Part shown: piece by piece, positions 7,113-27,466 of the stretch
Layout of the letters: each line of letters opens with the position of its first letter
How positions within the stretch are numbered: position 1 is the stretch's first letter
Assembly (NCBI GenBank): GCA_028699065.1
Contig: JAQVVH010000003.1
Span: 124,001 to 188,000, forward strand
Direction: 5' to 3'
DNA length: 64,000 bases
Source: Gallionella sp.
Lineage (GTDB): Bacteria > Pseudomonadota > Gammaproteobacteria > Burkholderiales > Gallionellaceae
The notes under the pieces: model-generated
Database searches by the model: none
The model's input: only the letters and a program-made list of their open reading frames with translations
What the model was told of the DNA's origin: nothing
Program-made: the position numbers and the translations under genes

Positions 7113-7895
7113 TTAACCAAATCGCCCTGTGATGTAGTCTTCCGTTTCCTTTTTGCTCGGATTAGTGAAGATTGTGCTGGTATCGCTGAACTCCACCAGA
7201 TCGCCCAGATACATGTAAGCCGTGTAATCGGAAACGCGCGCAGCCTGTTGCATGTTGTGTGTCACGATGGCGATCGTGAAATCCACTTTCAGTTCGTCGA
7301 TCAGTTTTTCAATGTGCGCCGTGGAGATTGGATCCAGCGCCGAGGTTGGCTCGTCCAGCAGTAGAACTTCCGGTTTGACCGCGATAGCGCGGGCGATGCA
7401 CAGGCGCTGCTGTTGTCCGCCCGACAGGCCGGTGCCGCTTTGCTTCAGCTTGTCCTTGACCTCGCCCCACAAAGCAGCTTTCTTCAGGGCCCACTCGACG
7501 CGCTCGTCCATTTCGCTGCCGCTGAGACTTTCATAGAGCTTCACGCCGAACGCGATGTTGTCGTAAATCGACATTGGGAACGGAGTCGGTTTCTGGAAAA
7601 CCATGCCCACCTTGGCACGCAAACGGTTTAGATCCTGCTTCGGGTCAAGAATGTTGTCGCCATCCAGAATGATTTGCCCGGTAGCCTTTTGTTGCGGATA
7701 AAGCTGGTACATGCGGTTGAAGGTCCGCAGCAATGTTGATTTTCCGCAACCGGACGGGCCGATGAAAGCGGTAACCATCTTTTCGGCGATTTCCATGTTG
7801 ATGTCTTTCAACGCAAGGAAATTGCCGTAGTAAAAATTCAGGTTCCGAACAGTGACCTTGGGATTGACGATGTTCATGGTTGAGTTCATTTGCAT
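7113..7895 (-). CDS. pstB: Phosphate ABC transporter ATP-binding protein PstB
   Basis: 260 residues. Cytoplasmic ATPase of the high-affinity phosphate importer. Walker [10 protein letters not shown] (46-54), signature LSGGQ (157-161) and Walker [12 protein letters not shown] (178-188) are all intact. The AAGG upstream is best spaced for the second ATG (7889, 258 residues), so the first two residues may not be made. Last gene of pstSCAB; phoU is not here but 13 kb away. Confidence 0.96.
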
Positions 7896-7904
7896 GCCTT
7901 GAGG

Positions 7905-8750
7905 TTAGTGATTGGAGGCGCTCTGACGGAACAGAATGCGCGCCAGAATGTTCAGCGTCAGTACGCTGAAGGTAATCAGCAAGGCGCCGGCCCAGGCCAG
8001 GCGCTGCCAGTCTTCGTAAGGACTCATCGCAAACTGGAAGATAACGACCGGCAGGTTGGCCATCGGATTTTCCATATCTGCATTCCAGAATTGATTGTTC
8101 AGCGCGGTGAAAAGCAGGGGCGCGGTTTCGCCGCTGATGCGGGCAATAGCCAGCATTACACCGGTGATGATCCCGGCACGGGCAGCGCGCAGGGTCACGA
8201 AATTAACGGTTTTCCACTGCGGTGCACCCAATGCCGCAGCCGCTTCACGCAGCGTATTCGGAATCAGGCGCAGCATGTTTTCAGTAGTCCGGATCACGAT
8301 GGGAATGACGATGATTGCCAATGCCAATGCACCAGCCCAGCCGGAAAAGTGGCGAATGTGCACCACATAAACTTCATACACAAACAGACCAATGACGATC
8401 GACGGTGCCGAGAGCAGGATATCGTTAATGAAGCGGGTAATCGGTGCCAGCCAGCCGCGCTGGCCGAATTCCGCCAGATAAGTGCCGGCCAGAATGCCGA
8501 TAGGCGTTCCGATCAGCGTGCCGACAATCGTCATCATCAGCGTGCCGACGATGGCATTTAACAAGCCACCATCACTGCCGGGTGGTGGCGTCATCTGGGT
8601 GAATACGGTCGAGGTGAGGGCGGGGAGTCCGTGATTCAGCAGCGTGAACAGAATCCAGCCCAGCCAGAACAGGCCAAAGGCCATGGCCAGTACCGATACG
8701 ATAAGACCGAGTCGGTTGGTAATGCGGCGGCGTGTGTAAATATCGATCAT
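7905..8750 (-). CDS. pstA: Phosphate ABC transporter permease PstA
   Basis: 281 residues with about six membrane helices. One of the two inner-membrane permeases of the Pst importer. The ABC-permease loop is visible around [19 protein letters not shown]. It lies 9 bp after pstC and 9 bp before pstB, in the standard order pstS-C-A-B. Confidence 0.95.
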
Positions 8751-8759
8751 CTTGATTCC

Positions 8760-9722
8760 TCAGGAAGCCTTGCCTTCTTGCTTACTCAACTGGTACAGCA
8801 TGTAACGGGCGATGGAAAGTACAACGAATGTGATGAAGAAGAGGATCAGGCCCAATTCAATCAGTGATGCGGTGTAAAGCTCGCCGTCCGCTTCAGTAAA
8901 TTCATTTGCCAGTGCCGACGCGATACTGTTGCCCGGTTCCAGCAGGGACATGCTGAGTTTGTGCGCGTTACCGATCACGAAGGTGACCGCCATGGTTTCA
9001 CCCAGCGCGCGGCCGAGGCCGAGCATGATCCCGCCAACCACCCCGATTCTGGTGTACGGAAGCACCACCTTGGTGACCACTTCCCAAGTGGTTGCACCCA
9101 CGCCGTAGGCCGACTCCTTAAGCATGGCAGGAACGACTTCAAACACATCGCGCATGACGGAAGCGATGAAGGGAATAACCATAATGGCCAGAATAATGCC
9201 GGCGGTCAGTATGCTGATGCCCATTGGCGGTCCGGAGAAAAATGCACCGATCATGGGGATTGTGCCGAGGTGATCGTTAATCCACGGTTCAATGTGTTCG
9301 GCAAAGAGCGGGGCAAATACGAACAGACCCCACATGCCGTAAATAATGCTTGGAATGCCGGCCAGCAGTTCAATCGCGATGCCCAGCGGGCGGCGCAAGG
9401 CTTGCGGGGAAAGCTCGGTCAGGAATATGGCAATTCCGAAGCTGACAGGAATGGCGATCAACAGCGCAATGCCGGAAGTGACCAGCGTGCCAACGATAGG
9501 CACCAGCGCACCGAAATTCTCGGTGACGGGGTTCCAGCTGTCGTTGATCAGAAAATTGAATCCGAAGGCTTGGATGGCCGGCATGCTGCCAATGACCAGC
9601 GAGCCAATGATGGCTGCAAGCAGGACAAGGACGCCGAAGGCGGACGCGCGGGTCATTCCTCGAAACAGCATGTCCAGCCAGACTTGGCGTTTTAGGCGAG
9701 CTTCTTGTAGAAATCCGGACAT
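8760..9722 (-). CDS. pstC: Phosphate ABC transporter permease PstC
   Basis: 320 residues, hydrophobic, with about six helices. Partner permease to PstA. The permease coupling motif is in [21 protein letters not shown]. The 95-bp gap to pstS holds two hairpins, while the gap to pstA is only 9 bp, so pstS is likely expressed more strongly than pstCAB. Confidence 0.95.
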
Positions 9723-9817: not shown

Positions 9818-10867
9818 TTACTTCCAGAGTGCGTGGCCCTTGCTGTCCTTGACCTGATCCTTCCAGGATTTACGGATCATGGCAGTGACATTTTCAGGCA
9901 GCGGCACGTAGTCAAGATCGGAAGCCATCTTGTCACCGTTTGCATAAGCCCAGTCGAAGAACTTCAGCACTTCTTTGCCGGATTCTGCCTTATCCTGAGT
10001 TTTGTAAACCAGGATGAAGGTGGCGCCAACGATAGGCCAGCTATCCTTGCCAGGCTGGTTAACCAGAACTTCGGCAAAGCCTTCTTCAGCTTTCCACTTT
10101 GCGCTGGCAGCCGCTGCCTTGAAGCTGATGTCGCTAGGCGAAGTGAAATTGCCATCACGATTCTTCAACTGGGCGTAGGACATCTTGTTCTGCAGTGCGT
10201 AAGCGTATTCAACGTAGCCGATCGCGCCCTTCATGTTCTTGACGTTGGCGGCAACACCTTCGTTGCCCTTGCCACCGGTTCCCACGGGCCATTGCACGGC
10301 CTTGTTGGCACCTACATTGCGACGCCACTCTGTACTGACTTCAGCGAGGTAAGTTGTGAAGATATGGGTTGTACCTGAACCGTCAGCACGGTGCACCACG
10401 GTGATGGTTTGGTTTGGCAGATTCACGCCCTTGTTGTCAGCAGCAATCTTCGGGTCATTCCACTGGGTGATTTTGCCCAGGAAGATGTCAGCCAGCGTTT
10501 CGCTGGTCAGTTTCAGCTGGCCGGCGGCAACGCCTTCCAGATTCAGGACAGGCACAACGCCACCAACCACGGTCGGGAACTGTGTCAGGCCAGCCATGCC
10601 CAGTTCATTGGCATTCAAAGGGGCATCAGTTGCGCCGAAATCTACAGTTTTGGCTTTGATCTGCTTGATGCCGCCGCCAGAACCGATAGATTGGTAGTTC
10701 ATGCCCACGCCTGTTTGGGCTTTGTAGGCTTCAGCCCACTTGGCGTATACGGGGTAGGGGAAAGTCGCACCGGCGCCAGTGATGTCGGTAGCGTGGCTGG
10801 CGGCAGTGAAGGCCATTGCGGATGCCGCGGCAATACCCACGACGATTTGCTTGAGTTTGATATTCAT
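9818..10867 (-). CDS. pstS: Periplasmic phosphate-binding protein PstS
   Basis: 349 residues from the ATG at 10867, which has GGAGA four bases upstream; the frame extends further up without support. A signal peptide (about 25 residues, ending near ASHA) precedes the mature start TDITGAGATFPYPVY. Phosphate-contact loops such as GSGGGIKQI, DFGATDAPL and RADGSGTTHIF are present. Captures phosphate for PstCAB. A Pho-box promoter lies about 75-110 bp upstream. Confidence 0.96.
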   Translation of the reverse strand: MNIKLKQIVVGIAAASAMAFTAASHATDITGAGATFPYPVYAKWAEAYKAQTGVGMNYQSIGSGGGIKQIKAKTVDFGATDAPLNANELGMAGLTQFPTVVGGVVPVLNLEGVAAGQLKLTSETLADIFLGKITQWNDPKIAADNKGVNLPNQTITVVHRADGSGTTHIFTTYLAEVSTEWRRNVGANKAVQWPVGTGGKGNEGVAANVKNMKGAIGYVEYAYALQNKMSYAQLKNRDGNFTSPSDISFKAAAASAKWKAEEGFAEVLVNQPGKDSWPIVGATFILVYKTQDKAESGKEVLKFFDWAYANGDKMASDLDYVPLPENVTAMIRKSWKDQVKDSKGHALWK

Positions 10868-10940
10868 TCTGTCTCCATTAAGTTGGATATGCTGAAGTTT
10901 GGCAATGCCAAATGAACCAAAGGTGCCGTTAAGCAAATGC

Positions 10941-10974
10941 ATAGTAGTTTTCTTATATGACACTATTATGACAT
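10941..10974 (-). promoter_or_regulatory. Pho-box promoter of pstS
   Basis: Read on the minus strand, ATGTCAT-AATA-GTGTCAT (10974-10957) matches the PhoB repeat CTGTCAT-N4-CTGTCAY at 12 of 14 repeat positions. Ten bases further comes the -10-like hexamer TACTAT (10946-10941). This is the usual Pho promoter layout, in which PhoB replaces a -35 element. The box overlaps the stop codon of the olsB-like gene upstream. Confidence 0.85.
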
Positions 10975-11721
10975 TTTCAGGAAATGTTTAGCATATCGGC
11001 TATTCAGGCGCGACATGGGCAGCAGAATGAGCAAATCTGCCGTATTGAACTCCGGATCCCAGGCGGGTTCGCCGCAAATATAAGCGCCCAGGCGCAGATA
11101 CCCTTTAAGCAGCGGAGGAATCGGGGCATCCAGATGCTGGTTTAGGGCGTGCGTGGGCAACGGGCAGCGTGGGAAAACACTGTATTCAATGGGGGCGGCG
11201 TAAATCCGGTGAAGCTTGCGATACAGGCTGGCGGCAACATGCCCACCGTCTGCCATGCTAACGCTGGCACAGCCAATCAGATATTCGTATCCGCCTTGCA
11301 CCATGTACTGCGCAATTCCACTCCAAAGATGGGTGATAGTTGCGCCATCCCGAAAATCCTGATGGACACAGGAACGACCCAATTCAACCATGCGATCGCT
11401 CAGGTGCAGTAATCGGGTCATGTCGAATTCTGTCTGGGAATAGTAGCCACCTATCTCCTGGGCGCGCTGCGGGGGCAGAATCCGGTAGGTGCCAACCACC
11501 CGATTTTCCTGGCTTTCGCGCACCAGCAGATGATCGCAGTAGCGATCAAATATATCCCGGTCCAGCCCCTCGCTGGCGCTGGGCAGGCGAGCACCCATTT
11601 CTTCGGCGAAAACCTTGAAACGCAAGCGTTGCGCTTCCTGAATTTCAGCAGCATCGTGCGCAATGGTTGTCGTAAGCCTGCGTTCGTGTGCGAGGGCTAT
11701 CTGGGAATTGAGTTCAAGCAT
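10966..11721 (-). CDS. olsB: OlsB-like acyl-ACP N-acyltransferase (ornithine lipid synthesis)
   Basis: 251 residues, GNAT fold of the family once called putative hemolysin. Recognisable blocks are RLRFKVFAEEMGAR, a VVGTYRIL strand and RMVELGRSCVHQDFRDG. OlsB enzymes link a 3-hydroxy fatty acid from ACP to ornithine, making lyso-ornithine lipid. The next gene upstream is a PlsC-type O-acyltransferase, as in olsBA pairs, and pstS lies directly downstream. Ornithine lipids replace phospholipids under phosphate limitation in many bacteria. The amino-acid substrate cannot be read from the sequence. Confidence 0.72.
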   Translation of the reverse strand: MLELNSQIALAHERRLTTTIAHDAAEIQEAQRLRFKVFAEEMGARLPSASEGLDRDIFDRYCDHLLVRESQENRVVGTYRILPPQRAQEIGGYYSQTEFDMTRLLHLSDRMVELGRSCVHQDFRDGATITHLWSGIAQYMVQGGYEYLIGCASVSMADGGHVAASLYRKLHRIYAAPIEYSVFPRCPLPTHALNQHLDAPIPPLLKGYLRLGAYICGEPAWDPEFNTADLLILLPMSRLNSRYAKHFLKMS

Positions 11722-11808: not shown

Positions 11809-12684
11809 TCAGTCGCGCTGGGGCTGTGCGGCCGGGTCCAGTAAAAGCCCGTATGTCGTATTGGCAGATTCGGGCACATGCTTGCGAGCAGGCGACGGGG
11901 AGGCGCGCTCTACCGCCGGTAGAGGAATCTGCAGTTGGGCCGCAATCGCCTCGCGGGCAGAATGGGCCAGAGACTTACGGTCGGAATAATTACTTGAATT
12001 GAAAGCGATAAACGCAACGAGGGCGGTTTGTTTTCGGCTGCACAATATGGCCCAGAGGGACGCAAGCAGTGTCGTTTCTCCGGTAAAGGGTACGGTGATA
12101 CTGGGTTGAAAGTTTCGATCGAAGTAGCGCAATCCGATCGGATGGACACGAACCCCGGCATCAATAGCCGGCTGTAGCATCGCCGCGTGGAAGGGGGCGA
12201 CATGGCTGCCGTCCGTAGTGGTTCCCTCCGGAAACAGACCGATCGTCGCACCCTGCTTCAGCGCTTGCACCAGTTTTGAGTTGGTGTTCGCAGTTTCGCG
12301 CCGTTGTGTGCGTTCGATAAAATGCGTGCCGGTTTTGCGGCATAACCAGCCGATCACCGGCCAGTCACGAACTTCGGCCTTGGCGACAAACTGGGTCGGA
12401 TGTATCGCGTTAATGACAAAAATGTCCAACCAGGAAACATGATTTGAAACCAGCAGACAACCAGAGCCCGGTTGAATCTCCGGGGTACTCTCGACTATCA
12501 GCTCGATCTCGATAATTTCAAGCAGCTGCCGGCTCCAGTTTGTAAGCATGTTGCGTTGAATCGCCGGTTCGACGATTGGGTAGATCACTGCCTGCAGTGC
12601 ACCAAAAGTCAGGTGAATAATGACGCGGCTCGCCTTGAATAGGGCGAACGTTCGAGCTGGTAGCGTTACGTGTGTGTTATTCAT
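11809..12684 (-). CDS. olsA: PlsC-family O-acyltransferase, probable OlsA
   Basis: 291 residues. A membrane-associated acyltransferase with the catalytic NHVSWLD motif (81-87, the NHX4D box) and FPEGTT (151-156); a hydrophobic segment lies near 20-45. Family members acylate lysophosphatidate or lyso-ornithine lipid. The neighbouring olsB-like gene favours the second role, but plain phosphatidic acid synthesis is possible. Its start overlaps the ackA end by 8 bp. The proline- and charge-rich C-terminal 40 residues are poorly conserved-looking. Confidence 0.7.
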   Translation of the reverse strand: MNNTHVTLPARTFALFKASRVIIHLTFGALQAVIYPIVEPAIQRNMLTNWSRQLLEIIEIELIVESTPEIQPGSGCLLVSNHVSWLDIFVINAIHPTQFVAKAEVRDWPVIGWLCRKTGTHFIERTQRRETANTNSKLVQALKQGATIGLFPEGTTTDGSHVAPFHAAMLQPAIDAGVRVHPIGLRYFDRNFQPSITVPFTGETTLLASLWAILCSRKQTALVAFIAFNSSNYSDRKSLAHSAREAIAAQLQIPLPAVERASPSPARKHVPESANTTYGLLLDPAAQPQRD

Positions 12685-16222: not shown

Positions 16223-16256
16223 AATCTAACCGTTGATGATGAATGCAATGTGACAG
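16223..16256 (-). promoter_or_regulatory. Candidate Pho-box promoter of xfp-ackA
   Basis: On the minus strand CTGTCAC-ATTG-CATTCAT (16256-16239) has one strong and one weaker PhoB half-site. It is followed by ten bases and then TAGATT (16228-16223), the same spacing seen at pstS and phoU. The half-site GTGACAG here also forms an inverted repeat with CTGTCAC at 16279-16285, so another dyad-binding regulator is an alternative. Confidence 0.45.
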
Positions 16257-18818: not shown

Positions 18819-18845
18819 AAAAAAACAGGCACCGGAGGGTGCCTG
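18819..18845 (-). terminator. Intrinsic terminator after the plcP-like/glycosyltransferase operon
   Basis: CAGGCACC (18826-18833) and GGTGCCTG (18838-18845) form an 8-bp stem with a 4-base loop. Seven A at 18819-18825 become the U-tract on the minus strand, so it acts on the leftward operon. It lies only 18 bp beyond the glgP stop and may also slow glgP transcripts. Confidence 0.8.
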
Positions 18846-18923: not shown

Positions 18924-20057
18924 TCAGTAATAAGCCTGCGCCAGCCGCTTGGCTATCTTCGTTTCATCCCACTCGCGGGCATGCGCTTTTGCCTCGTCTG
19001 ACAGCTTACGTTGCAAATCGGGGTCGCTGAACAGGCGAATCAGGGCGCGGGAAAAATCCAGAGGGTCATCCAGTGGTGTAATGGCGCCTCGCTCGGCTTC
19101 CAAAATGTCGGTGGTGCCCATGCTGGACAGTGCAATGACGGGCAAACCCATCGCCATCGCCTCGAGAAGTACCAACCCTTGTGTTTCGGTGCGCGAAGCA
19201 AAAACAAAAGCATTAGCCGCCGCATAGCAATGGGGCAGTTCATGGGTGCGATCCAGATAGCCCAGAAATTTGACGTTTTCACCCAGATTGTGTTTTTCGA
19301 CATCCCGTTGCAAATGAGTTCGGGCCGGTCCTTCGCCTGTGACGAGGAGAAGGATGTCCGGAATATGTTTCCGGGCATGGGCGAGGCTCTCAATCAGAAA
19401 GCCGATATTTTTTTCATGGGCGACGCGACCCACGAACAGAGCGATTGGACGTTCCGGATGAATGCCGTATTCCTCGCGAAATCTTTCCCCGTGACCGCTA
19501 TTGAATTGAGACAGGGGAATGCCTGTGGGCAAAATTTCCAGTTGCCGGCTAACGCCGTATTCAGACAGACGCCGGTGAATTGCCCGCGATGGCACGATAA
19601 TTTTGTCCATTTGATTGCACTGTTTTTGCGAAATTCTGCGGGCCAGCAGCTTTAGCCAGCTTGCAGGCAGAAACGGCAGGTAATGCTGAAAGTATTCTTC
19701 GAACAGGGTGTGATAGGTTGATACCAGTGGTAGGCCAACTTTTTTGGCCACTTTGACGGCAGCATAGTGCGCCAGGAAAGGGGTCTGCACATGAATCAGG
19801 TCGGCATGGCGCGCTTCCCGCTCAATAGCCGCCAGTAATGGTTTCCAGCGCATGATCCGATCTTCCGGATCCCGGGGTACGGGCCTGCCGGGAACGCGAA
19901 CAATCCAGTCTTCATCCGCTGTTTTCGGGCCGTAATCCGGCGCAATCAGCCGGACTTCAATACCTTCGGCCAGCAAGGTGCGCCGATAGGTGCTGATGGC
20001 ACTTGAAACGCCATTGATCCTTGGGAAATAAACATCCGAAACCATCAGGACGCGCAT
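18924..20057 (-). CDS. GT4 glycosyltransferase, diacylglycerol glucosyltransferase-like
   Basis: 377 residues. The ATG at 20057 has GGGAGGCGG directly upstream and begins MRVLMVSDVYFPRINGVSS, a GT-B N-terminal strand; the longer frame is spurious. The GT4 donor site shows GRVAHEKNIGFL and the EX7E motif ETQGLVLLE. The acceptor-side TYHTLFEEYFQHYLP resembles diacylglycerol glucosyltransferases. It overlaps the PlcP-like gene by 13 bp, so the two are translated together. Proposed role: glycolipid synthesis from the diacylglycerol that PlcP releases. Sugar and acceptor are not proven. Confidence 0.72.
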   Translation of the reverse strand: MRVLMVSDVYFPRINGVSSAISTYRRTLLAEGIEVRLIAPDYGPKTADEDWIVRVPGRPVPRDPEDRIMRWKPLLAAIEREARHADLIHVQTPFLAHYAAVKVAKKVGLPLVSTYHTLFEEYFQHYLPFLPASWLKLLARRISQKQCNQMDKIIVPSRAIHRRLSEYGVSRQLEILPTGIPLSQFNSGHGERFREEYGIHPERPIALFVGRVAHEKNIGFLIESLAHARKHIPDILLLVTGEGPARTHLQRDVEKHNLGENVKFLGYLDRTHELPHCYAAANAFVFASRTETQGLVLLEAMAMGLPVIALSSMGTTDILEAERGAITPLDDPLDFSRALIRLFSDPDLQRKLSDEAKAHAREWDETKIAKRLAQAYY

Positions 20058-20863
20058 GCCGCCTCCCCGATTTTTGGCGCGTTGCCGGTGGGCATGGATT
20101 TTCCCCATTCGATGAGCTCCAGTTCTCCGCTCATGTGCTCGACAATGGCGGTGCAGCTGTCGACCCAGTCTCCGCAATTGACATAGAGCAGGTTGTCGAT
20201 TTCCCGGATGACGGCCCAGTGAATATGGCCGCAGACGACGCCGTCCAGACCACGGTCACGGGCGGCATGAATGACGGAACGTTCAAAATCAAAGATAAAT
20301 TGCAGGGCCGATTTTATTTTTCGTTTGGCGTAACCGGCCAGGGACCAATAGCCCGGTCGCCGGAAAAAACGCCGCCACCAAGACATAACCGAATTGATTC
20401 TAACCAGAAGGTCGTAACCAATATCGCCCAGAACGGCAACCCAGCGATGATGCCGGGTGACCTGATCAAACTCATCGCCGTGAATCAACAAAAGGCGTTT
20501 TCCGTCTGCAGTAGTGTGGACATACTCATGCACCAGCTGGATGTCGCCGAAGGTGGTGCCGTTGTAATCGCGCAGGGCCTCATCGTGATTTCCCGGAATG
20601 AACACGACTTTTTCGCCATGGCGGGCGCGGCGCAGGATTTTTTGGATGACCGTGTTTTGCGACGGGCTCCATTGAATGCTGCGGCTCATGCTCCAGAAGT
20701 CGATGATGTCGCCAATCAAAAAGAGATTTTCCGATTCGTATTCGCGCAGAAAGCCCAGCAATCGTTCCGCCTGACAGGCGCGCGTACCAAGATGAATGTC
20801 GGAAAGAAAAATAGAGCGAACGCTTCGACTGCTGCCGGTCTCTGCTGTGGTGGCGTTATTCAT
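20045..20863 (-). CDS. plcP: Calcineurin-type phosphoesterase, PlcP-like (or LpxH-like)
   Basis: 272 residues. Metallophosphoesterase with the full metal set: FLSDIHLG, GDIIDFW, PGNHDE, IHGDEFD and CGHIHWA. It looks more like PlcP, the phosphate-starvation phospholipase C of rhizobia and marine bacteria, than like canonical LpxH, judging by IHLGTRACQAE, the GDIGYD segment and YVNCGDWVDSCTA. Annotated relatives are often called UDP-2,3-diacylglucosamine diphosphatase. The overlap with a GT4 lipid glycosyltransferase and phoU as the upstream neighbour both favour PlcP. AGGGGGG precedes the ATG. Confidence 0.7.
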   Translation of the reverse strand: MNNATTAETGSSRSVRSIFLSDIHLGTRACQAERLLGFLREYESENLFLIGDIIDFWSMSRSIQWSPSQNTVIQKILRRARHGEKVVFIPGNHDEALRDYNGTTFGDIQLVHEYVHTTADGKRLLLIHGDEFDQVTRHHRWVAVLGDIGYDLLVRINSVMSWWRRFFRRPGYWSLAGYAKRKIKSALQFIFDFERSVIHAARDRGLDGVVCGHIHWAVIREIDNLLYVNCGDWVDSCTAIVEHMSGELELIEWGKSMPTGNAPKIGEAACAS

Positions 20864-20898
20864 GCGGCCCCCCTTGTTTGCGCACTGCTCGCGAGGGT

Positions 20899-20926
20899 AA
20901 AAAAAAGGGCACCCTGCAGGGTGCCC
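20899..20926 (-). terminator. Intrinsic terminator of phoU
   Basis: A perfect 20-bp palindrome, GGGCACCCTG paired with CAGGGTGCCC (20907-20926), is followed on the minus strand by eight U. It ends the phoU transcript but lies only 36 bp upstream of the plcP-like ATG, so it could also attenuate read-through into that gene. Confidence 0.9.
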
Positions 20927-21002
20927 AAGAGAGGAGGTTGCTTTCGGGAAGCCCTGCCATGCTAATAATTCCTTGTTTCATAAATTTTTCAGTCATGCGA
21001 CG

Positions 21003-21725
21003 TTACTGTGAAATTTTTCTGGCGTTCAGTTCTTGTTCGATCTCGTCCACGCTGATATGTCTGGCATTGCGGCCTTCAACAAGATAAATGATGTATTCGC
21101 CGATGTTTTGGGCGTGGTCTCCCATGCGCTCGACAGATTTGGCAACAAATAATATTTCTATGGCTGCCGAAATCGTGCGCGGGTCTTCCATCATGAGCGC
21201 GACCAGGTAACGCAAAATAGCCCGGAATTCCATGTCAATCTGGACGTCAGTGCGCAGCACATGCGTTATCTGGGAAATATCAATTCGCGCGAAAGCATCA
21301 AGGGAACGTTCCAGCATTTCCAGCGCCAATCGCGCGGCATGGCGAATTTCCGTGTAGCGGGCGGGATGAAAATTTTCCCGTTGCGCCATTTGGCGCGCCA
21401 TTCGGGCGATATTTTTGGCTTCATCGCCGATGCGTTCCAGATCCTTGATCGTTTTGATGATGGTCATGACCATGCGCAAGTCGTTGGCGGTAGGCTGCCG
21501 CCGCGCAATCAGCTCAACACATTTTTCATCGATCTCGACTTCCATGCCGTTCACGCGATGATCATCTGCGATGATTTTTTCTATCAGCGAAATATCCTGG
21601 GTCATCAATGCTTCCATACAGCGCTGAATCTGGTTTGCAACCAACGATCCCATTAGCATGACATTCCTGCGCATCGCTTCCAGTTCGTTGTCATACTGCG
21701 TGAGGGTATGTTTGTTGTGCGCCAT
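21003..21725 (-). CDS. phoU: Phosphate signalling regulator PhoU
   Basis: 240 residues, two PhoU three-helix domains with the paired acidic metal motifs (DEAKNIARMA and DHAQNIGEYI). PhoU links the Pst transporter to PhoR/PhoB and shuts off the Pho regulon when phosphate is plentiful. Unusually it is not the last gene of pstSCAB but stands alone 13 kb away with its own Pho-box promoter and its own terminator. Confidence 0.95.
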   Translation of the reverse strand: MAHNKHTLTQYDNELEAMRRNVMLMGSLVANQIQRCMEALMTQDISLIEKIIADDHRVNGMEVEIDEKCVELIARRQPTANDLRMVMTIIKTIKDLERIGDEAKNIARMARQMAQRENFHPARYTEIRHAARLALEMLERSLDAFARIDISQITHVLRTDVQIDMEFRAILRYLVALMMEDPRTISAAIEILFVAKSVERMGDHAQNIGEYIIYLVEGRNARHISVDEIEQELNARKISQ

Positions 21726-21761
21726 GATTAATCGTCCGGATTTATTTATGGATACTTGGGG

Positions 21762-21795
21762 ATGCTACGCAGCTTGCGTGACGAATTTATGACAG
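21762..21795 (-). promoter_or_regulatory. Pho-box promoter of phoU
   Basis: On the minus strand CTGTCAT-AAAT-TCGTCAC (21795-21778) has one perfect and one 5-of-7 half-site at 11-bp pitch. It is followed by ten bases and then TAGCAT (21767-21762) as -10. Spacing is identical to the pstS element. Confidence 0.82.
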
Positions 21796-21816
21796 TCACC
21801 GAAAGCGTCAACTTGC

Positions 21817-23025
21817 TTAACTTGCGATCGCGGTGGTCTGTGTTTTGGTTTCCGGTATTGGAACGGAATGTGCCAGTTTGAGCAGGATGGATTCGAGCTG
21901 AATGTTGATGTTTTCCCAGCTCAGATGTTCGACCGATGTCCGGGCATTTCTCCGCATGCGTTGAAGCCGGTATTCGTCGGATAGTATGCCTTGGGCCAAT
22001 GCAAGGAAGGCATGCTCATCATTGAACGGTGCGAGTAATCCGTTGATCTCGTGTTTTATATGTTCTCTTGCGGCAGCATAGTCGTAGGCGAGCGTCAGCA
22101 GGCCGCTCGCCATCGCTTCGATGGTGACGTTGCCGTAGGTTTCGGTCGTGCTCGGGTACAGGAAAAGGTCGGCAGAAGCATAATGCCGCGCAAGATCTTC
22201 ACCGCTGCGCATGCCCGCAAAAATGATATGCGGAAATCTTTGTTGCAAGGCTGCGCGCGCCGGGCCGTCTCCGACCATGACAAGCTTGCTGTCCGGTCTG
22301 AGGTGATGAATTTTTTCAAAGGCCTCGACGACCAGCGACAGATTTTTTTCTGCGGCAAGGCGGCTGACCAGTATGGCGACAGGTGTGCCATTCATCGCAC
22401 CCCATTGACGGCGCAGTTCGGTACATCGCTTGTCCGGATGAAAGCGTGCGGCATCGATACCGCGGGAAATCACATGAACATTCTTATACCCGGATTGGCT
22501 CAGAGTTTTTTGTAACGAAACGGTAGGCACCAGCGTGCATTGAGTGCGGTTGTGAAACCGCCGCAGGTAGGATTCGATCGGCTTGTTGAGCCATCCCACG
22601 CCGTAATGCTGGCTGTAATTGTGAAAATTGGTATGGAAATCGCTGCAAACCGGGATGCCGAGCACTTGCGCGGCGGAACATGCAGACCATCCCAACGGGC
22701 CTTCGGTTGCAATATGGACAACATCCGGTCGTTTGTCCCGCCACAACCGAAGCAGTTTTTCTTTTGCAGGCAAACCGAATTTGAGTTCCGGATAGCCAGG
22801 AATTGGAAGGCTAGCCATCAGTGTTTCAGAATAGTGGGCGAAAATTTTCGCTTTATCCTGCCTGCCTTGCGCGGGTCGAACTACGTGGATATCGTGCTGG
22901 CGTTCGAGAAGTCCATCAATCATTCTGCCCAGCGTTATCGCAACGCCATTGATTTCCGGCGGATAAGTTTCCGTGACCAGCGCGATTCTGAGCTGCCGTG
23001 GTTGAATTTTTTCGACCTCATTCAT
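21817..23025 (-). CDS. GT4 glycosyltransferase, MgtA/Agt-like
   Basis: 402 residues from the ATG at 23025 with AAGGGAC just upstream; the 79-codon extension above it has no support. GT-B fold with N-terminal LRIALVTETYPPEINGVA, the block HIATEGPLG, the donor-site VSRLAAEKNL and EX7E in ETYGNVTIE. These features resemble GDP-mannose-dependent alpha-mannosyltransferases and the Agt or SqdX glycolipid synthases. The gene ends just before the phoU promoter and is probably a separate transcript. Its acceptor is unknown; membrane lipid is the contextual guess. Confidence 0.68.
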   Translation of the reverse strand: MNEVEKIQPRQLRIALVTETYPPEINGVAITLGRMIDGLLERQHDIHVVRPAQGRQDKAKIFAHYSETLMASLPIPGYPELKFGLPAKEKLLRLWRDKRPDVVHIATEGPLGWSACSAAQVLGIPVCSDFHTNFHNYSQHYGVGWLNKPIESYLRRFHNRTQCTLVPTVSLQKTLSQSGYKNVHVISRGIDAARFHPDKRCTELRRQWGAMNGTPVAILVSRLAAEKNLSLVVEAFEKIHHLRPDSKLVMVGDGPARAALQQRFPHIIFAGMRSGEDLARHYASADLFLYPSTTETYGNVTIEAMASGLLTLAYDYAAAREHIKHEINGLLAPFNDEHAFLALAQGILSDEYRLQRMRRNARTSVEHLSWENINIQLESILLKLAHSVPIPETKTQTTAIAS

Positions 23026-23165
23026 GTCCCTTATGATGCGTACGACAGATGAAGAATTGATGACAATTTTGCTATGAACAGGTGAGGCGCGCGCGCCAAA
23101 GACGGAAATATTGCCGTAGTAATTGAACTTTATAGTGGCAAGCCAAAAGTACATCACGTTTGGAC

Positions 23166-25016
23166 ATGCCTTTATCAAGCTTTCACATTGAAGAAATTCT
23201 TCTTCCCAGATTGCAGCAGCTGCGTGCCGATGCGCTTGAGCTCGAGCGTGAGTTTGCGCCATTGATCAAATCTGTCGACCATGCGCATCGGGCCAGCGCG
23301 CGCAATCTATTGCATTATCTTGCGCTCAGGCAAAGCGATCTGCGGGATTTGCAAAATAATCTAGCGCAACTCGGATTAAGCCGGCTGGGTCGTGCCGAGG
23401 CGCACACACTGAGCAGTATCGATGCGGTTATCAATGCGCTTAGGGCATTGGCGGATCTGCCGCGGCTGCCGCCCCACGAAAACGAGATTGACTTCAATTC
23501 CGGTGCCAAGCGGCTGGCGGATCACGCTATGGCTTTGTTCGGATCCAGTCCAGATCGTCATGCTGGCCGGATTATGGTCACCATGCCGTCGGAAGCCGCG
23601 CACGATCCGAGCTTGGTGCGGACGCTTTTGCTGGCCGGCATGAATGTGATGCGGATCAATTGCGCGCACGACGGTCCGGATGAGTGGATTGCCATGATTC
23701 GTCACCTGCGCGAGGCTGAGAAGTCGGTAGGACGGCATTGTCGGGTTTATGCCGATCTGGCTGGGCCGAAGCTCCGCACGGGAGAAATTCGGGCCAGCGG
23801 GCGATTAGTCGAATTCAAGGTCAAACGTGATATTTGGGGGCATACGGTCGAGCCGGCAAGAATATTGTTGACGGCGAGCGCCAATTTCGAGCCGCTGCCG
23901 ACTACTGTGGACGCGATTTTGCAGTTGGATACCGATCTGCTCAAAAAAATTCAGGCGGGGGATGTGCTTGAAGTCGATGATGCGCGCGGCTCTATCCGCC
24001 GCCTGACATTGAGTGAGCAAATCGGCGATGGCTGGCTGGGCGAGTGTCTCCGGCACGCATATATCGCAGATGGTGCGGGATGCCGTTTATACCGTGAAAC
24101 CGAGCGGATGGCTGAAGGGAAAGTAGGGCCTTTGCCGGAAGTTTCGCAGCCCATTCTGCTTAATGTGGATGATCTGCTCTGCCTAACTAGGAGTGCCGAG
24201 CCCGGAATGCCCGCGACTTATGACAGTTACGGTAAGCTGCTCCACCCGGCCAGTATCCCGTGCACGCTGTCCGCGGTGTTCGAAACCGCGAAGGCGGGAG
24301 AGCCGGTCTGGTTTGATGACGGCAAAATTGGCGGTGAAATCTACAGTAATGATGGCGACATCATAACCATAAAAATTACGCATGCCGCGCCTCAAGGCAG
24401 TAAGTTGCGTCCGGAAAAAGGCATTAATCTGCCGTTGACCGAATTCGATGTGCCGGCGCTTTCGGTTGCGGACCTGGAAAACCTGCAGTTGCTTGCCCCG
24501 CTGATCGATATAGTGGGTCTTTCATTCGTGCGATCCTCTGCCGATGTGGCCGAATTGCATCGGCATTTGCACGAGATGGGGGTGTCGAATCTGGGGACGA
24601 TATTGAAAATCGAGACGCGTCAGGCCTTTGAAAATCTCCCGATGATTCTGCTTGAAAGTTTACGCCATGCCCCCGTGGGTATCATGGTGGCGCGGGGTGA
24701 TCTGGCTGTGGAAGTGGGTTTTGAGCGTTTGGCCGAAGTGCAGGAAGAAATTCTCTGGCTGTGCGAAGCTGCGCATGTTCCCGTGGTTTGGGCGACTCAG
24801 GTGCTGGACAACATGGCACGGCGCGGATTGCCGTCACGGGCCGAAGTGTCAGATGCCGCCCATGCCGTGCGCGCCGAATGCGTGATGCTCAACAAGGGGC
24901 CGTACATTGTTGAAACCGTAACATTTCTCAGCGGTATTTTGTCCCGCATGAGCGGCCATCAGGCCAAGCAGCGGCCCATGATGCGTCCCTTGTCGGTATC
25001 CCGCTTGCGCCAGTAA
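23166..25016 (+). CDS. Atypical long pyruvate kinase lacking the C-terminal regulatory domain
   Basis: 616 residues from the ATG at 23166; a TTG two codons earlier is also possible. Pyruvate kinase catalytic blocks are recognisable: MNVMRINCAHDG, ADLAGPKLRTGEI, LKIETRQAF, MVARGDLAVE and WATQVLDNMARRGLPSRAEV. Differences from classical enzymes are an extra helical N-terminal region of about 120 residues, an enlarged middle (B-like) domain, Ser changed to Ala in the NFSH-equivalent (NCAH), and an end just after the barrel. It should convert PEP and ADP to pyruvate and ATP, but cation use and allostery must differ. Confidence 0.72.
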   Translation: MPLSSFHIEEILLPRLQQLRADALELEREFAPLIKSVDHAHRASARNLLHYLALRQSDLRDLQNNLAQLGLSRLGRAEAHTLSSIDAVINALRALADLPRLPPHENEIDFNSGAKRLADHAMALFGSSPDRHAGRIMVTMPSEAAHDPSLVRTLLLAGMNVMRINCAHDGPDEWIAMIRHLREAEKSVGRHCRVYADLAGPKLRTGEIRASGRLVEFKVKRDIWGHTVEPARILLTASANFEPLPTTVDAILQLDTDLLKKIQAGDVLEVDDARGSIRRLTLSEQIGDGWLGECLRHAYIADGAGCRLYRETERMAEGKVGPLPEVSQPILLNVDDLLCLTRSAEPGMPATYDSYGKLLHPASIPCTLSAVFETAKAGEPVWFDDGKIGGEIYSNDGDIITIKITHAAPQGSKLRPEKGINLPLTEFDVPALSVADLENLQLLAPLIDIVGLSFVRSSADVAELHRHLHEMGVSNLGTILKIETRQAFENLPMILLESLRHAPVGIMVARGDLAVEVGFERLAEVQEEILWLCEAAHVPVVWATQVLDNMARRGLPSRAEVSDAAHAVRAECVMLNKGPYIVETVTFLSGILSRMSGHQAKQRPMMRPLSVSRLRQ

Positions 25017-25030
25017 CTGATTGGTTTTTC

Positions 25031-25399
25031 TCAGGCCAGCAGTACCAGTAACCAGACAGTGACCACATTAAGCAGGCTCACCAGTACGGCTGCGCTGCCA
25101 ATGTCTTTGGCACGCTTGGCCAGCCGGTGGCTGTCCAGTGAGATGCGATCCACGGTTGCCTCGATGGCGGAATTGATTAACTCCACGATCAGTACGATGA
25201 GCACGCTGGAGATCATCAGCGCCTTGCCAATCAGGCTGGCCGGCAGCCAAAGCGCCAGCGGGATGAGCAGCGCGGCCAGCATAGCTTCCTGGCGAAAAGC
25301 GTCTTCATGTTTGTAGGCGGCCCGGAATCCGGCCAGAGAATAACCGAGCGCATTCCACAAGCGCCGCAGCCCGGTCTTGCCTTTATATGGACTTTCCAA
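25031..25399 (-). CDS. dgkA: Diacylglycerol kinase
   Basis: 122 residues if started at the TTG at 25399, the same length as the E. coli enzyme; the frame continues to a TTG at 25453. Three membrane helices and the family signature ELINSAIEATVDRI (with HRLAKRAKDIGSAAV) are clear. It phosphorylates diacylglycerol to phosphatidate in the inner membrane, the opposite direction to diacylglycerol release by a PlcP enzyme. Convergent with the pyruvate kinase, 14 bp apart. Confidence 0.88.
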   Translation of the reverse strand: MESPYKGKTGLRRLWNALGYSLAGFRAAYKHEDAFRQEAMLAALLIPLALWLPASLIGKALMISSVLIVLIVELINSAIEATVDRISLDSHRLAKRAKDIGSAAVLVSLLNVVTVWLLVLLA

Positions 25400-25541
25400 G
25401 GGAGACTCCCGAATTAACGAGCTCGCATTGTAGGCGGAACTATATGACGGCAATGTTGCAGATATAGATCCTCAGCAGCTTCGCTGCGAACAGTCGCTGC
25501 GCTGTAACAAATTCTTCACACAATTCCATTATCATCGAAAT

Positions 25542-25871
25542 ATGGAAAATAAAATGATCGTCAAAGCGCTCGCTGCGCTCGCCCAAGCGTCGAGGTTGGA
25601 AATTTTTCGTCTTTTGGTGGTTGCCGGGCCAAGCGGGATGACGCCGGGGAGGTTAACCGAGTTGCTGGGTGTGCCGGCCAACACACTTTCATTTCACCTC
25701 AAAGAGTTGATCAATGCGGATCTGGTGAACGTGGAAAGGCAAGGTCGCCATCTTGTTTATCGTGCCCAGTACGATCGCATGAATCAGCTTGTATCTTATT
25801 TAACTGAAAACTGTTGCGCGGGGCAGTCTTGTGAACTGACATCGGACCGTGTGTGCCAATTAACCAACTGA
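25542..25871 (+). CDS. arsR: ArsR-family arsenic-responsive repressor
   Basis: 109 residues, winged helix (helix-turn-helix near 36-62). The usual ELCVCDL metal site in the recognition region is absent (it reads GRLTELLGVP). Instead cysteines cluster at the C-terminus, Cys91, Cys92, Cys97 and Cys105, a placement like the C-terminal As(III) site of Acidithiobacillus ferrooxidans ArsR. First gene of an arsR-arsC-acr3 operon that it should repress until arsenite binds. Confidence 0.9.
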   Translation: MENKMIVKALAALAQASRLEIFRLLVVAGPSGMTPGRLTELLGVPANTLSFHLKELINADLVNVERQGRHLVYRAQYDRMNQLVSYLTENCCAGQSCELTSDRVCQLTN

Positions 25872-25883
25872 CGAGGAAGAATC

Positions 25884-26402
25884 GTGAGCGACATCGAACC
25901 CATCAATGTGCTTTTTTTATGTACCCATAACTCCGCCCGGAGCATTTTGTCAGAAGCGCTGCTGAATGACTTGGGCAAGGGACGCTTCAGGGGATATTCG
26001 GCCGGCAGCAGTCCGCGCGAGAATCAGACGCCCAATCCACTCGCAATCAGGGCACTTGAAAGCGCCGGAATTTCTACTGCGGATCTGAGCAGCAAAAGCT
26101 GGGATGTATTCTCGGGTGAGGGGGCGCCGGAAATGGATTTGATTATCACGGTATGCGACAACGCGGCGGGCGAAGTTTGCCCGGTTTGGGTCGGACATCC
26201 GGCAACGGCGCATTGGGGTTATCCCGATCCGTCCGATACCCGGGGCGATGACGCGCAAAGGTTGGAGGCATTTAAAAAGACCATGATGCAAATTCGCCGG
26301 CGCGTGGAGCTGCTGATAAGTCTTCCCGAGGAAAAATTGCGGCGCAGTGCGCTGGAGGCAAGTGCCCGTCATTTGGCCGTGGTCGACAGGGTTGAAAAGT
26401 GA
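25884..26402 (+). CDS. arsC: Arsenate reductase, low-molecular-weight phosphatase family
   Basis: 172 residues. The CX5R phosphatase-like loop is CTHNSARS near residue 13, with further conserved cysteines in VCDNAAGEVCPVW. It reduces arsenate to arsenite for export. The GTG start follows GAGGAAGAATC. About 30 residues longer than minimal family members because of a basic C-terminal helix. Its TGA overlaps the acr3 GTG. Confidence 0.9.
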   Translation: MSDIEPINVLFLCTHNSARSILSEALLNDLGKGRFRGYSAGSSPRENQTPNPLAIRALESAGISTADLSSKSWDVFSGEGAPEMDLIITVCDNAAGEVCPVWVGHPATAHWGYPDPSDTRGDDAQRLEAFKKTMMQIRRRVELLISLPEEKLRRSALEASARHLAVVDRVEK

Positions 26403-27466
26403 GCGCCCAGTGCGAAGTCGCCGCCAAGAAAATCGGCAAAGCAGATATGAGTTTGTTTGAGCGGTATTTGACGCTCTGGGTATTGCTATGCATTCTCGCC
26501 GGCATTCTGCTGGGGCAATTTCTGCCTGAAGTTTTTCAGGCGGTCGGCCGCATGGAACTTGCTCGGGTCAATCTTCCGGTCGGACTGCTGATCTGGGTGA
26601 TGATTATTCCGATGCTGCTCAAGGTGGACTTCGGTGCGCTGGGGGAGGTCAGGAAGCACGCAAAAGGTATCGGCGTGACCCTGTTTGTGAATTGGCTCGT
26701 CAAGCCTTTCTCGATGGCGTTTCTGGGATGGCTGTTCATTCGCCACTTGTTCGCGCCGCTGCTGCCGGCTGATCAGTTGGACAGCTACATTGCCGGACTG
26801 ATTTTACTGGCAGCGGCACCTTGTACCGCGATGGTTTTTGTTTGGAGCCGACTCACTAATGGTGATCCTTTGTTTACCCTGTCGCAGGTGGCTTTGAACG
26901 ACACGATTATGGTGTTCGCATTCGCCCCGATTGTCGGGTTGCTGTTGGGTGTTGCCTCGATTGCGGTGCCATGGGATACCTTGCTGACATCGGTCGTGCT
27001 TTACATTGTGATTCCGGTGGTCATTGCGCAGTGGTGGAGAAAAGCGCTGTTGGCAAAAGGCCAAGATACATTTGACGCGGCCATGGAAAGGATCGGTCCT
27101 TGGTCAATCTCGGCATTGCTGGCAACCCTCGTCTTGTTATTTGCCTTTCAGGGCGAGGCGATTCTCGGGCAGCCGTTGGTGATTGCATTGCTTGCGGTGC
27201 CTATTCTCATCCAAGTGTTCTTTAACTCGGCACTTGCCTATGGGCTTAATCGCGCCGTGGGCGAAAAGCATAATGTGGCGTGTCCCTCCGCCCTGATTGG
27301 CGCATCCAACTTTTTTGAGCTTGCCGTTGCCGCGGCCATCAGTTTGTTCGGGTTCAACTCGGGAGCGGCTTTGGCAACCGTGGTCGGTGTCCTCATTGAG
27401 GTGCCGGTGATGCTGCTGGTGGTCAAAGTGGTGAATTCGACCAAGGGCTGGTACGAGGCTGCTTGA
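26399..27466 (+). CDS. acr3: Arsenite efflux transporter of the ACR3 family
   Basis: 355 residues with ten predicted membrane helices. Exports arsenite using the proton gradient. Typical ACR3 blocks are NWLVKPFSMA, the conserved cysteine in LLAAAPCTAMVFVWS and the NSALAYGLNR region. The GTG at 26399 overlaps the arsC stop by four bases; an ATG 16 codons further on (MSLFERYL) is a possible alternative start. Last gene of the arsenic operon. Confidence 0.93.
   Translation: MSAQCEVAAKKIGKADMSLFERYLTLWVLLCILAGILLGQFLPEVFQAVGRMELARVNLPVGLLIWVMIIPMLLKVDFGALGEVRKHAKGIGVTLFVNWLVKPFSMAFLGWLFIRHLFAPLLPADQLDSYIAGLILLAAAPCTAMVFVWSRLTNGDPLFTLSQVALNDTIMVFAFAPIVGLLLGVASIAVPWDTLLTSVVLYIVIPVVIAQWWRKALLAKGQDTFDAAMERIGPWSISALLATLVLLFAFQGEAILGQPLVIALLAVPILIQVFFNSALAYGLNRAVGEKHNVACPSALIGASNFFELAVAAAISLFGFNSGAALATVVGVLIEVPVMLLVVKVVNSTKGWYEAA

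Follow-up and report, generated by a model that had tools for sequence, protein, structure and literature searches.

A putative phosphate-starvation lipid-remodeling island in a Gallionella genome, with a glycosyltransferase clade separate from Agt1 and Agt2

The PlcP-Agt1-Agt2 system of Pseudomonas aeruginosa (PA3219, PA3218, and PA0842) is among the closest described counterparts of the locus considered here, which combines a PlcP-type phosphoesterase gene with two glycosyltransferase (GT) genes in a Gallionella sp. genome (GenBank assembly GCA_028699065.1, contig JAQVVH010000003.1). The 64,000 nucleotides analyzed (contig positions 124,001 to 188,000) are referred to as the window. According to excerpts of PMC8528852, Agt2 makes glucuronosyl-diacylglycerol from UDP-glucuronate and diacylglycerol (DAG), while Agt1 makes monoglucosyl-DAG. 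Marine heterotrophs and type II methanotrophs have plcP-agt loci that likewise pair PlcP with a GT4 lipid glycosyltransferase under phosphate control, as far as the excerpts of PMC4796936 and PMC9239053 go. In the latter source, as excerpted, plcP transcripts of Methylotenera are mentioned and another DAG glycosyltransferase adjoins plcP in several type Ia methanotrophs, so that partner switching beside plcP is already known. Further related literature, again in excerpt, is found in PMC8231724 and PMC5193443; the term PlcP was not found in the text of PMC10667739. At the level of titles and abstract starts, we found no description of a betaproteobacterial plcP-GT set among the open-access papers listed by our searches (5 to 25 per search).

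In the window, four genes follow one another on the minus strand in the order GT2, phoU, plcP, and GT1 in the direction of transcription (Table 1), the last two overlapping by 13 bp. The original prediction, made from the DNA letters alone, had drawn these four open reading frames, the overlap, and the protein families in the same way and had read them as a membrane-remodeling module, a reading that gains support from PlcP and Agt2 homology, from a gene set conserved in relatives, and from PhoB boxes at a conserved position in those relatives. Shared with the P. aeruginosa system are a PlcP-family enzyme, an additional GT belonging to the Agt2 clade, candidate Pho boxes, and an overlapping plcP-GT pair. 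The differences are that the GT overlapping plcP is GT1 and not Agt1, and that GT2 and a diacylglycerol kinase gene (dgkA) stand in the same cluster, with OlsB/OlsA-like and pst genes nearby. Compared with the marine heterotroph and methanotroph loci, the plcP-adjacent GT comes from another clade and the hosts are betaproteobacterial.

We consider that the island serves PhoB-controlled membrane remodeling in phosphate starvation through PlcP, GT2, GT1, and DgkA, perhaps together with ornithine lipids, and we put the probability of this reading at about 0.85. Judged from its sequences, the island very probably acts by removing phosphate from the lipids of the membrane and substituting sugars for it. 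At low phosphate, PhoB would turn the module on, and PlcP would cut the phosphate-bearing headgroup off phospholipids, leaving DAG. GT2 would add glucuronic acid to DAG to give glucuronosyl-DAG, while GT1 would add another hexose, most likely glucose, to give hexosyl-DAG, whereby glycolipid would replace phospholipid. Surplus DAG would be converted back to phosphatidic acid by DgkA, and the linked OlsB/OlsA-like pair may contribute phosphate-free ornithine lipids. The PlcP and Agt2 reactions are predicted by analogy with characterized relatives, whereas the roles of DgkA and of ornithine lipids are proposed more tentatively. The PlcP module is well supported and ordinary in kind, a widespread betaproteobacterial variant of a known pathway; what is new is the type of enzyme represented by GT1 and the linkage to DgkA, ornithine-lipid-like, and pst genes.

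The phosphoesterase compared with PlcP and LpxH

The product of plcP (272 amino acids) was assigned to the Metallophos domain by profile search and is 46.5% identical to the Sinorhizobium meliloti PlcP and 48.4% identical to that of P. aeruginosa. Since the two references are themselves 46.6% identical to each other, the window protein stands at the level of PlcP similarity; excerpts of PMC8528852 give 46% identity between PA3219 and the S. meliloti PlcP. Both references were taken from plasmid-collection records, of which the S. meliloti one adjoins LuxR-type and acyl-homoserine-lactone synthase genes and the P. aeruginosa one a GT and a cyclase gene. From these neighbors, we take them to be SMc00171 and PA3219 (in the PA3219-PA3217 neighborhood), respectively. 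On the LpxH model TIGR01854, the window protein scores 40.1 bits (cut-off, 190.35), similar to the PlcP references (44.5 and 38.9 bits), and a separate, true lpxH with 255.9 bits lies on contig C5 of the genome. The GNHD motif is present in all 117 PlcP-family rows and GNRD in none of them, while the other metal motifs of the calcineurin type, GHxH and D-x-H, occur in 117 and 116 of the 117, respectively. GNRD is found in the LpxH of the genome itself and in the solved LpxH 5k8k; as the former row was selected by this very motif (of the frames at the TIGR01854 locus that hold GNRD, the longest), it is 5k8k that serves as the independent witness of the motif.

In a quick PlcP tree of 65 rows, for which 27 of the 80 related loci described below were used, the single LpxH row stands far outside PlcP on a long branch. 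One locus, L146, was dropped from the tree because its row was only 62 amino acids long; it is a second plcP copy with two internal stops in a related genome (G050:C7:19935-20672). A phmmer search of the Protein Data Bank (PDB) with the PlcP query returned one match below an E value of 0.01, an LpxH (1.3e-7), and seven weaker ones. The search of the genome with Metallophos_2 failed to recover the window's own plcP, and TIGR01854 and a protein query were therefore relied on instead.

The label "UDP-2,3-diacylglucosamine diphosphatase" is carried by 24 of the 32 plasmid-collection homologues (for the other 8, no gene is listed there), as the original prediction had expected when it foresaw an LpxH-type misannotation. 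This label, along with the weak LpxH model match, would fit an LpxH-type lipid A enzyme accompanied by GTs that build lipopolysaccharide or polysaccharide, an explanation which we consider highly improbable in view of the true lpxH elsewhere, the GNHD motif, the tree position, the conserved PhoB boxes and DgkA, and the grouping of GT2 with Agt2. LpxH shares with the window protein the calcineurin-like family and a distant similarity, and differs in motif, model score, and tree place. LpxH identity was rejected on these grounds; on the sequence half of the refuting test attached to the original prediction (a place within true LpxH and no other lpxH in the genome), the tree sets LpxH outside and a true lpxH is present. 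As far as its sequence tells, the window protein is a PlcP-family phosphoesterase of a kind commonly mislabeled as LpxH, and the database label of the PlcP homologues can be corrected in this sense.

Glycosyltransferases and the gene set in relatives

GT1 (377 amino acids) and GT2 (402 amino acids counted from the ATG at 23025, in an open frame extending to 23262) each contain Glycos_transf_1 plus Glyco_transf_4 domains. Out of 18950 NCBIfam models, the membrane-lipid GTs alpha-monoglucosyl-DAG synthase (alMGS) and N-acetylglucosaminyl-phosphatidylglycerol synthase rank highest for each of the two proteins, though far below cut-off, with 157.6 and 134.2 bits for GT1 and 123 and 147.2 bits for GT2 (cut-offs, 400 and 480); the comparison of GT1 with alMGS was made through this model only. 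P. aeruginosa Agt1 reaches only 50.7 and 59.9 bits on the same two models, and none of the five other GT4 proteins of the genome has lipid-GT models on top (for one of them, L094, no family passed the limit applied). GT2 is 48.1% identical over 378 amino acids to the P. aeruginosa GT adjoining plcR, which, from this neighbor, we take to be PA0842 (Agt2).

In a GT tree of 47 rows, GT2 and Agt2 form one clade (99/99), Agt1 belongs to a second (100/100), and GT1 to a third (97/91); the outgroup consists of the other GT4 proteins of the genome, which have long branches and do not form one group. GT1 and Agt1 are 30.7% identical. The original prediction had taken both enzymes for Agt-like lipid GTs, which holds for GT2, of Agt2 type. 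GT1 as an ordinary Agt was rejected, its clade being neither that of Agt1 nor that of Agt2. AlphaFold2 models of the two proteins are confident (pLDDT, 89.8 each) and match GT-B enzymes, and Foldseek against the PDB retrieved for both only generic GT-B relatives (MshA, BshA, PimB', and sucrose-phosphate synthase), by which the acceptor is not distinguished. By analogy with characterized Agt2, we propose GT2 as a glucuronosyl-DAG synthase; its UDP-glucuronate could come from two proteins of the genome that exceed the cut-off of TIGR03026, a general family of sugar-nucleotide dehydrogenases. For GT1, the donor would be a hexose, most likely glucose, and the product a hexosyl-DAG, which we put forward with more reserve than the PlcP and Agt2 reactions; the clade is in any case a defined new one, open to assay. 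The closest GT1 (100/100), accompanied by a PlcP nearly sister to that of the window (94), is found at L006, on a contig titled Mariprofundales bacterium, a zetaproteobacterium; this placement reflects either lateral transfer or a misbinned contig.

Conservation was assessed in 80 loci, selected from 341 relatives for the highest PlcP similarity, on genome contigs mostly from metagenome-assembled genomes (MAGs). The set includes near-duplicates (L007 and L008 represent one MAG), some loci are cut by contig ends, and gene presence was scored by blastx against named references within the fetched stretch. GT1 was detected in 72 of the loci, GT2 in 60, both in 58, DgkA in 41, PAP2 in 14, an OlsB-like protein in 12, a true Agt in 1, and any of PhoU, PstA, and PstB in 27. 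The association of plcP with GT1 is not due to chance, since in 61 of the 80 loci GT1 is the next gene on the same strand, at most 150 bp away. Because the arrangement differs among loci (GT1-DgkA-GT2-PlcP in L044, GT2-PlcP-DgkA-GT1 in L013), it is the set that is conserved and not the order. Twelve other loci of the same order of bacteria, each about 3.7 kb long, encode PlcP of the same enzyme family, but only 48 to 54% identical to the window's; nine of them (L125 to L130 and L133 to L135) have a true Agt beside plcP instead, and GT1 or GT2 occurs in none. On the PlcP tree, the type of partner GT requires a single change (labels on 47 of the 65 rows, deep nodes unresolved), although a gammaproteobacterial row, L088, has a GT1-type partner.

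Eighteen further regions from the nearest genomes contain GT1 in 12 cases (directly downstream of plcP in 9 of the 18), an OlsB-like protein in 5, GT2 in 3, DgkA in 2, and any pst or phoU gene in 7. These regions bear on an alternative in which PlcP, GT2, and DgkA remodel lipids while GT1 uses another acceptor, adding a second sugar to the GT2 product or to another lipid to form a diglycosyl lipid. Such a role would agree with the position of GT1 outside both Agt clades and with the sequential GT4 lipid glycosyltransferases known from the PhoB regulon of Caulobacter (excerpts of PMC6445935), but among the 12 regions with GT1, 10 are without GT2 in the fetched stretch and 2 have both. GT1 thus appears beside PlcP without any obvious dependence on GT2, which could nevertheless lie elsewhere in those genomes. 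We regard the diglycosyl route as unlikely, though the most serious of the alternatives, and prefer DAG as the acceptor of GT1. In a wider proposal, to which we give even odds, GT1 would be the founder of a third clade of lipid GTs serving in phosphate starvation. It would take the position of Agt1 next to plcP across much of the Betaproteobacteria and form with GT2 and DgkA a two-way switch between phospholipid and glycolipid, joined here with ornithine lipids in one pst-linked island.

PhoB boxes and the position of phoU

The genome encodes its own PhoB (357.9 bits; cut-off, 296.2), and on contig C5 a one-mismatch box precedes the phoB match by 48 nt. As strict Pho-box consensus we used CTGTCATN4CTGTCAT, given in excerpts of PMC8528852. 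For the loci, sites were scored against two CTGTMAY half-sites 4 nt apart (maximum, 14), and those reaching at least 11 were counted. The degenerate letters M and Y stand here as our assumption. Over the 340 nt upstream of plcP in the 80 loci, the mean best score is 10.76, versus 8.91 in dinucleotide shuffles, and 26 of the loci reach 12 or more, crowded at few distances. Within the 36-nt band from 60 to 95 nt before the SDIHLG codon, 62 of the 80 loci have a box, versus 3, 1, 1, 2, 0, and 1 of 80 and 1 of 79 in seven control bands of equal width further upstream. The sites peak at 67, 78, and 89 nt (33, 17, and 16 of the 80), that is, in steps of 11 bp, the length of the PhoB repeat; the mean score shows further elevations at 56 and 43 nt, where 2 and 0 sites, respectively, reach 11. 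Upstream of GT2 (n = 53), boxes occur in 6 loci at 66 to 101 nt and in 8 at 102 to 137 nt, versus 0 to 2 further upstream, and two weak candidates (10/14) precede GT2 in the window, one of them at 95 nt, a place used in L054, L067, L071, and L083. No strong peak was seen upstream of GT1 (n = 79; at most 6 per band), as expected for a gene lying inside an operon. Visual inspection of L028, L034, L036, and L038 shows a -10-like TATCGT that follows the PhoB repeats and ends 6 nt ahead of the plcP ATG, so that the plcP mRNAs of these loci may be leaderless; L041 has TATCTT at that position.

The original prediction had also tied the module to phoU, directly upstream of plcP. The phoU gene, whose product has 240 amino acids, is indeed the next one upstream, but 139 bp intervene, with a terminator-like hairpin (8 pairs, 7 of them G-C). 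As a class, such sites are not enriched in the window (9 found, versus 8.6 in shuffles), and the folding of the whole gap is as stable as that of shuffles (z, 0.07); the local hairpin is nonetheless clear. PhoU is encoded in 11 of the 80 loci and is the direct neighbor of plcP in none of these, so the tie to phoU turned out to be local, and a conserved phoU-plcP operon was rejected. The wider regulatory tie of the module consists in the PhoB boxes and the pst genes, not in phoU.

Several observations weigh against PhoB-controlled remodeling as we propose it. At the fixed place, the window's own plcP lacks a box (best score, 10/14, at 189 nt), and the hairpin separates it from phoU with its candidate box. 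Allowing up to three mismatches, the window holds 7 box sites against 4.44 expected, and the genome-wide pattern gives 22 sites against 18 for the reversed control; with counts so near the control, a single site proves nothing. The 60- to 95-nt band was picked once these same 80 loci had already been inspected, and only 3 of the 18 nearest-genome regions reach 11/14 in it, though 13 of them do so within 300 nt, versus 2 of 18 in-gene controls. In addition, GT1 is far under the cut-offs of its lipid-GT models, the OlsB- and OlsA-like proteins score highest on the respective models without reaching the cut-offs, and of the 37 genomes of the genus, some of them incomplete, only 16 show PlcP. The missing box, the hairpin, and the near-control genome count would suit a constitutive DAG-recycling or glycolipid system lying near pst by coincidence. 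Against this stand the 62 of 80 boxes in one narrow band, with 0 to 3 in its controls, and the boxes before GT2, and we judge a constitutive system improbable. Under the PhoB-controlled reading, phosphate induction of plcP in this particular genome is a more cautious proposal than the PlcP and Agt2 reactions, and its transcription would either come from the phoU box and read through the hairpin or use an unseen promoter.

The wider island and its surroundings

The four-gene block is real, and the original prediction had left out dgkA (PF01219 has no other hit in the genome), the OlsB/OlsA-like pair, and pstSCAB, all in the same window (Table 1).

Table 1. Features of the putative lipid-remodeling island, in window coordinates
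Feature	Coordinates	Strand	Evidence
dgkA, diacylglycerol kinase	25031..25453	-	PF01219, 119.6 bits
GT2, Agt2-type GT4, proposed glucuronosyl-DAG synthase	21817..23025	-	Identity to P. aeruginosa GT; clade with Agt2
Candidate Pho box CTGTCATAAATTCGTCAC upstream of phoU	21778..21795	-	3 mismatches to CTGTCATN4CTGTCAT, 2 to degenerate form
phoU	21003..21725	-	TIGR02135, 225.7 bits (cut-off, 130.25)
Terminator-like hairpin GGGCACCCTGCAGGGTGCCC between phoU and plcP, followed by eight T	20907..20926	-	Terminator scan
plcP-type metallophosphoesterase, proposed phospholipase C	20045..20863	-	PlcP identities; TIGR01854 far below cut-off; GNHD; tree
GT1, GT4 family, proposed DAG glycosyltransferase	18924..20057	-	plcP overlap; lipid-GT models on top; own clade
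Terminator-like hairpin 3' of GT1	18826..18845	-	Terminator scan
OlsA-like O-acyltransferase	11809..12684	-	Top NCBIfam model OlsA, 127.8 bits (cut-off, 300)
OlsB-like N-acyltransferase, proposed ornithine lipid synthesis	10966..11721	-	Top NCBIfam model OlsB, 182.4 bits (cut-off, 320)
Candidate Pho box ATGTCATAATAGTGTCAT before pstS	10957..10974	-	Window scan and degenerate-form scan
pstS, true start probably further in	9818..10963	-	NF008171, 445.1 bits (cut-off, 339)
pstC	8760..9722	-	TIGR02138, 315.4 bits (cut-off, 196.45)
pstA	7905..8750	-	NF008430, 443.2 bits (cut-off, 439)
pstB	7113..7895	-	TIGR00972, 395.5 bits (cut-off, 343.2)

The module predicts glucuronosyl- and hexosyl-DAG lipids in freshwater and wastewater betaproteobacteria (by record title, these include Dechloromonas, Azonexus, Accumulibacter, Thiobacillus, and Gallionella), which bears on the reading of polar lipid biomarkers. 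As Fe(III) oxyhydroxides, the habitat of Gallionella-type iron oxidizers, are strong phosphate sorbents (excerpts of PMC10734482), sparing membrane phosphate would directly adapt such cells to the mineral they make.

Other genes accompany the island. Between 12677 and 16256 lie a phosphoketolase-like gene (identified by eye) and a gene of the acetate kinase family, which continue into the OlsA/OlsB-like pair; a weak Pho-box-like site (16239-16256, 3 mismatches) precedes the phosphoketolase-like gene. Inside the island, a large pyruvate-kinase-like protein is encoded on the plus strand (23160-25016; NF011314, 760.6 bits), and a gene of this type recurs near plcP in 6 of the 80 loci and 4 of the 18 regions. 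Adjoining the island at 25542-27466 is an apparent arsenic set (ArsR-, arsenate reductase-, and ACR3-like, by eye); an ACR3-like gene recurs near plcP in 4 of the 80 loci (L005, L010, L014, and L021).

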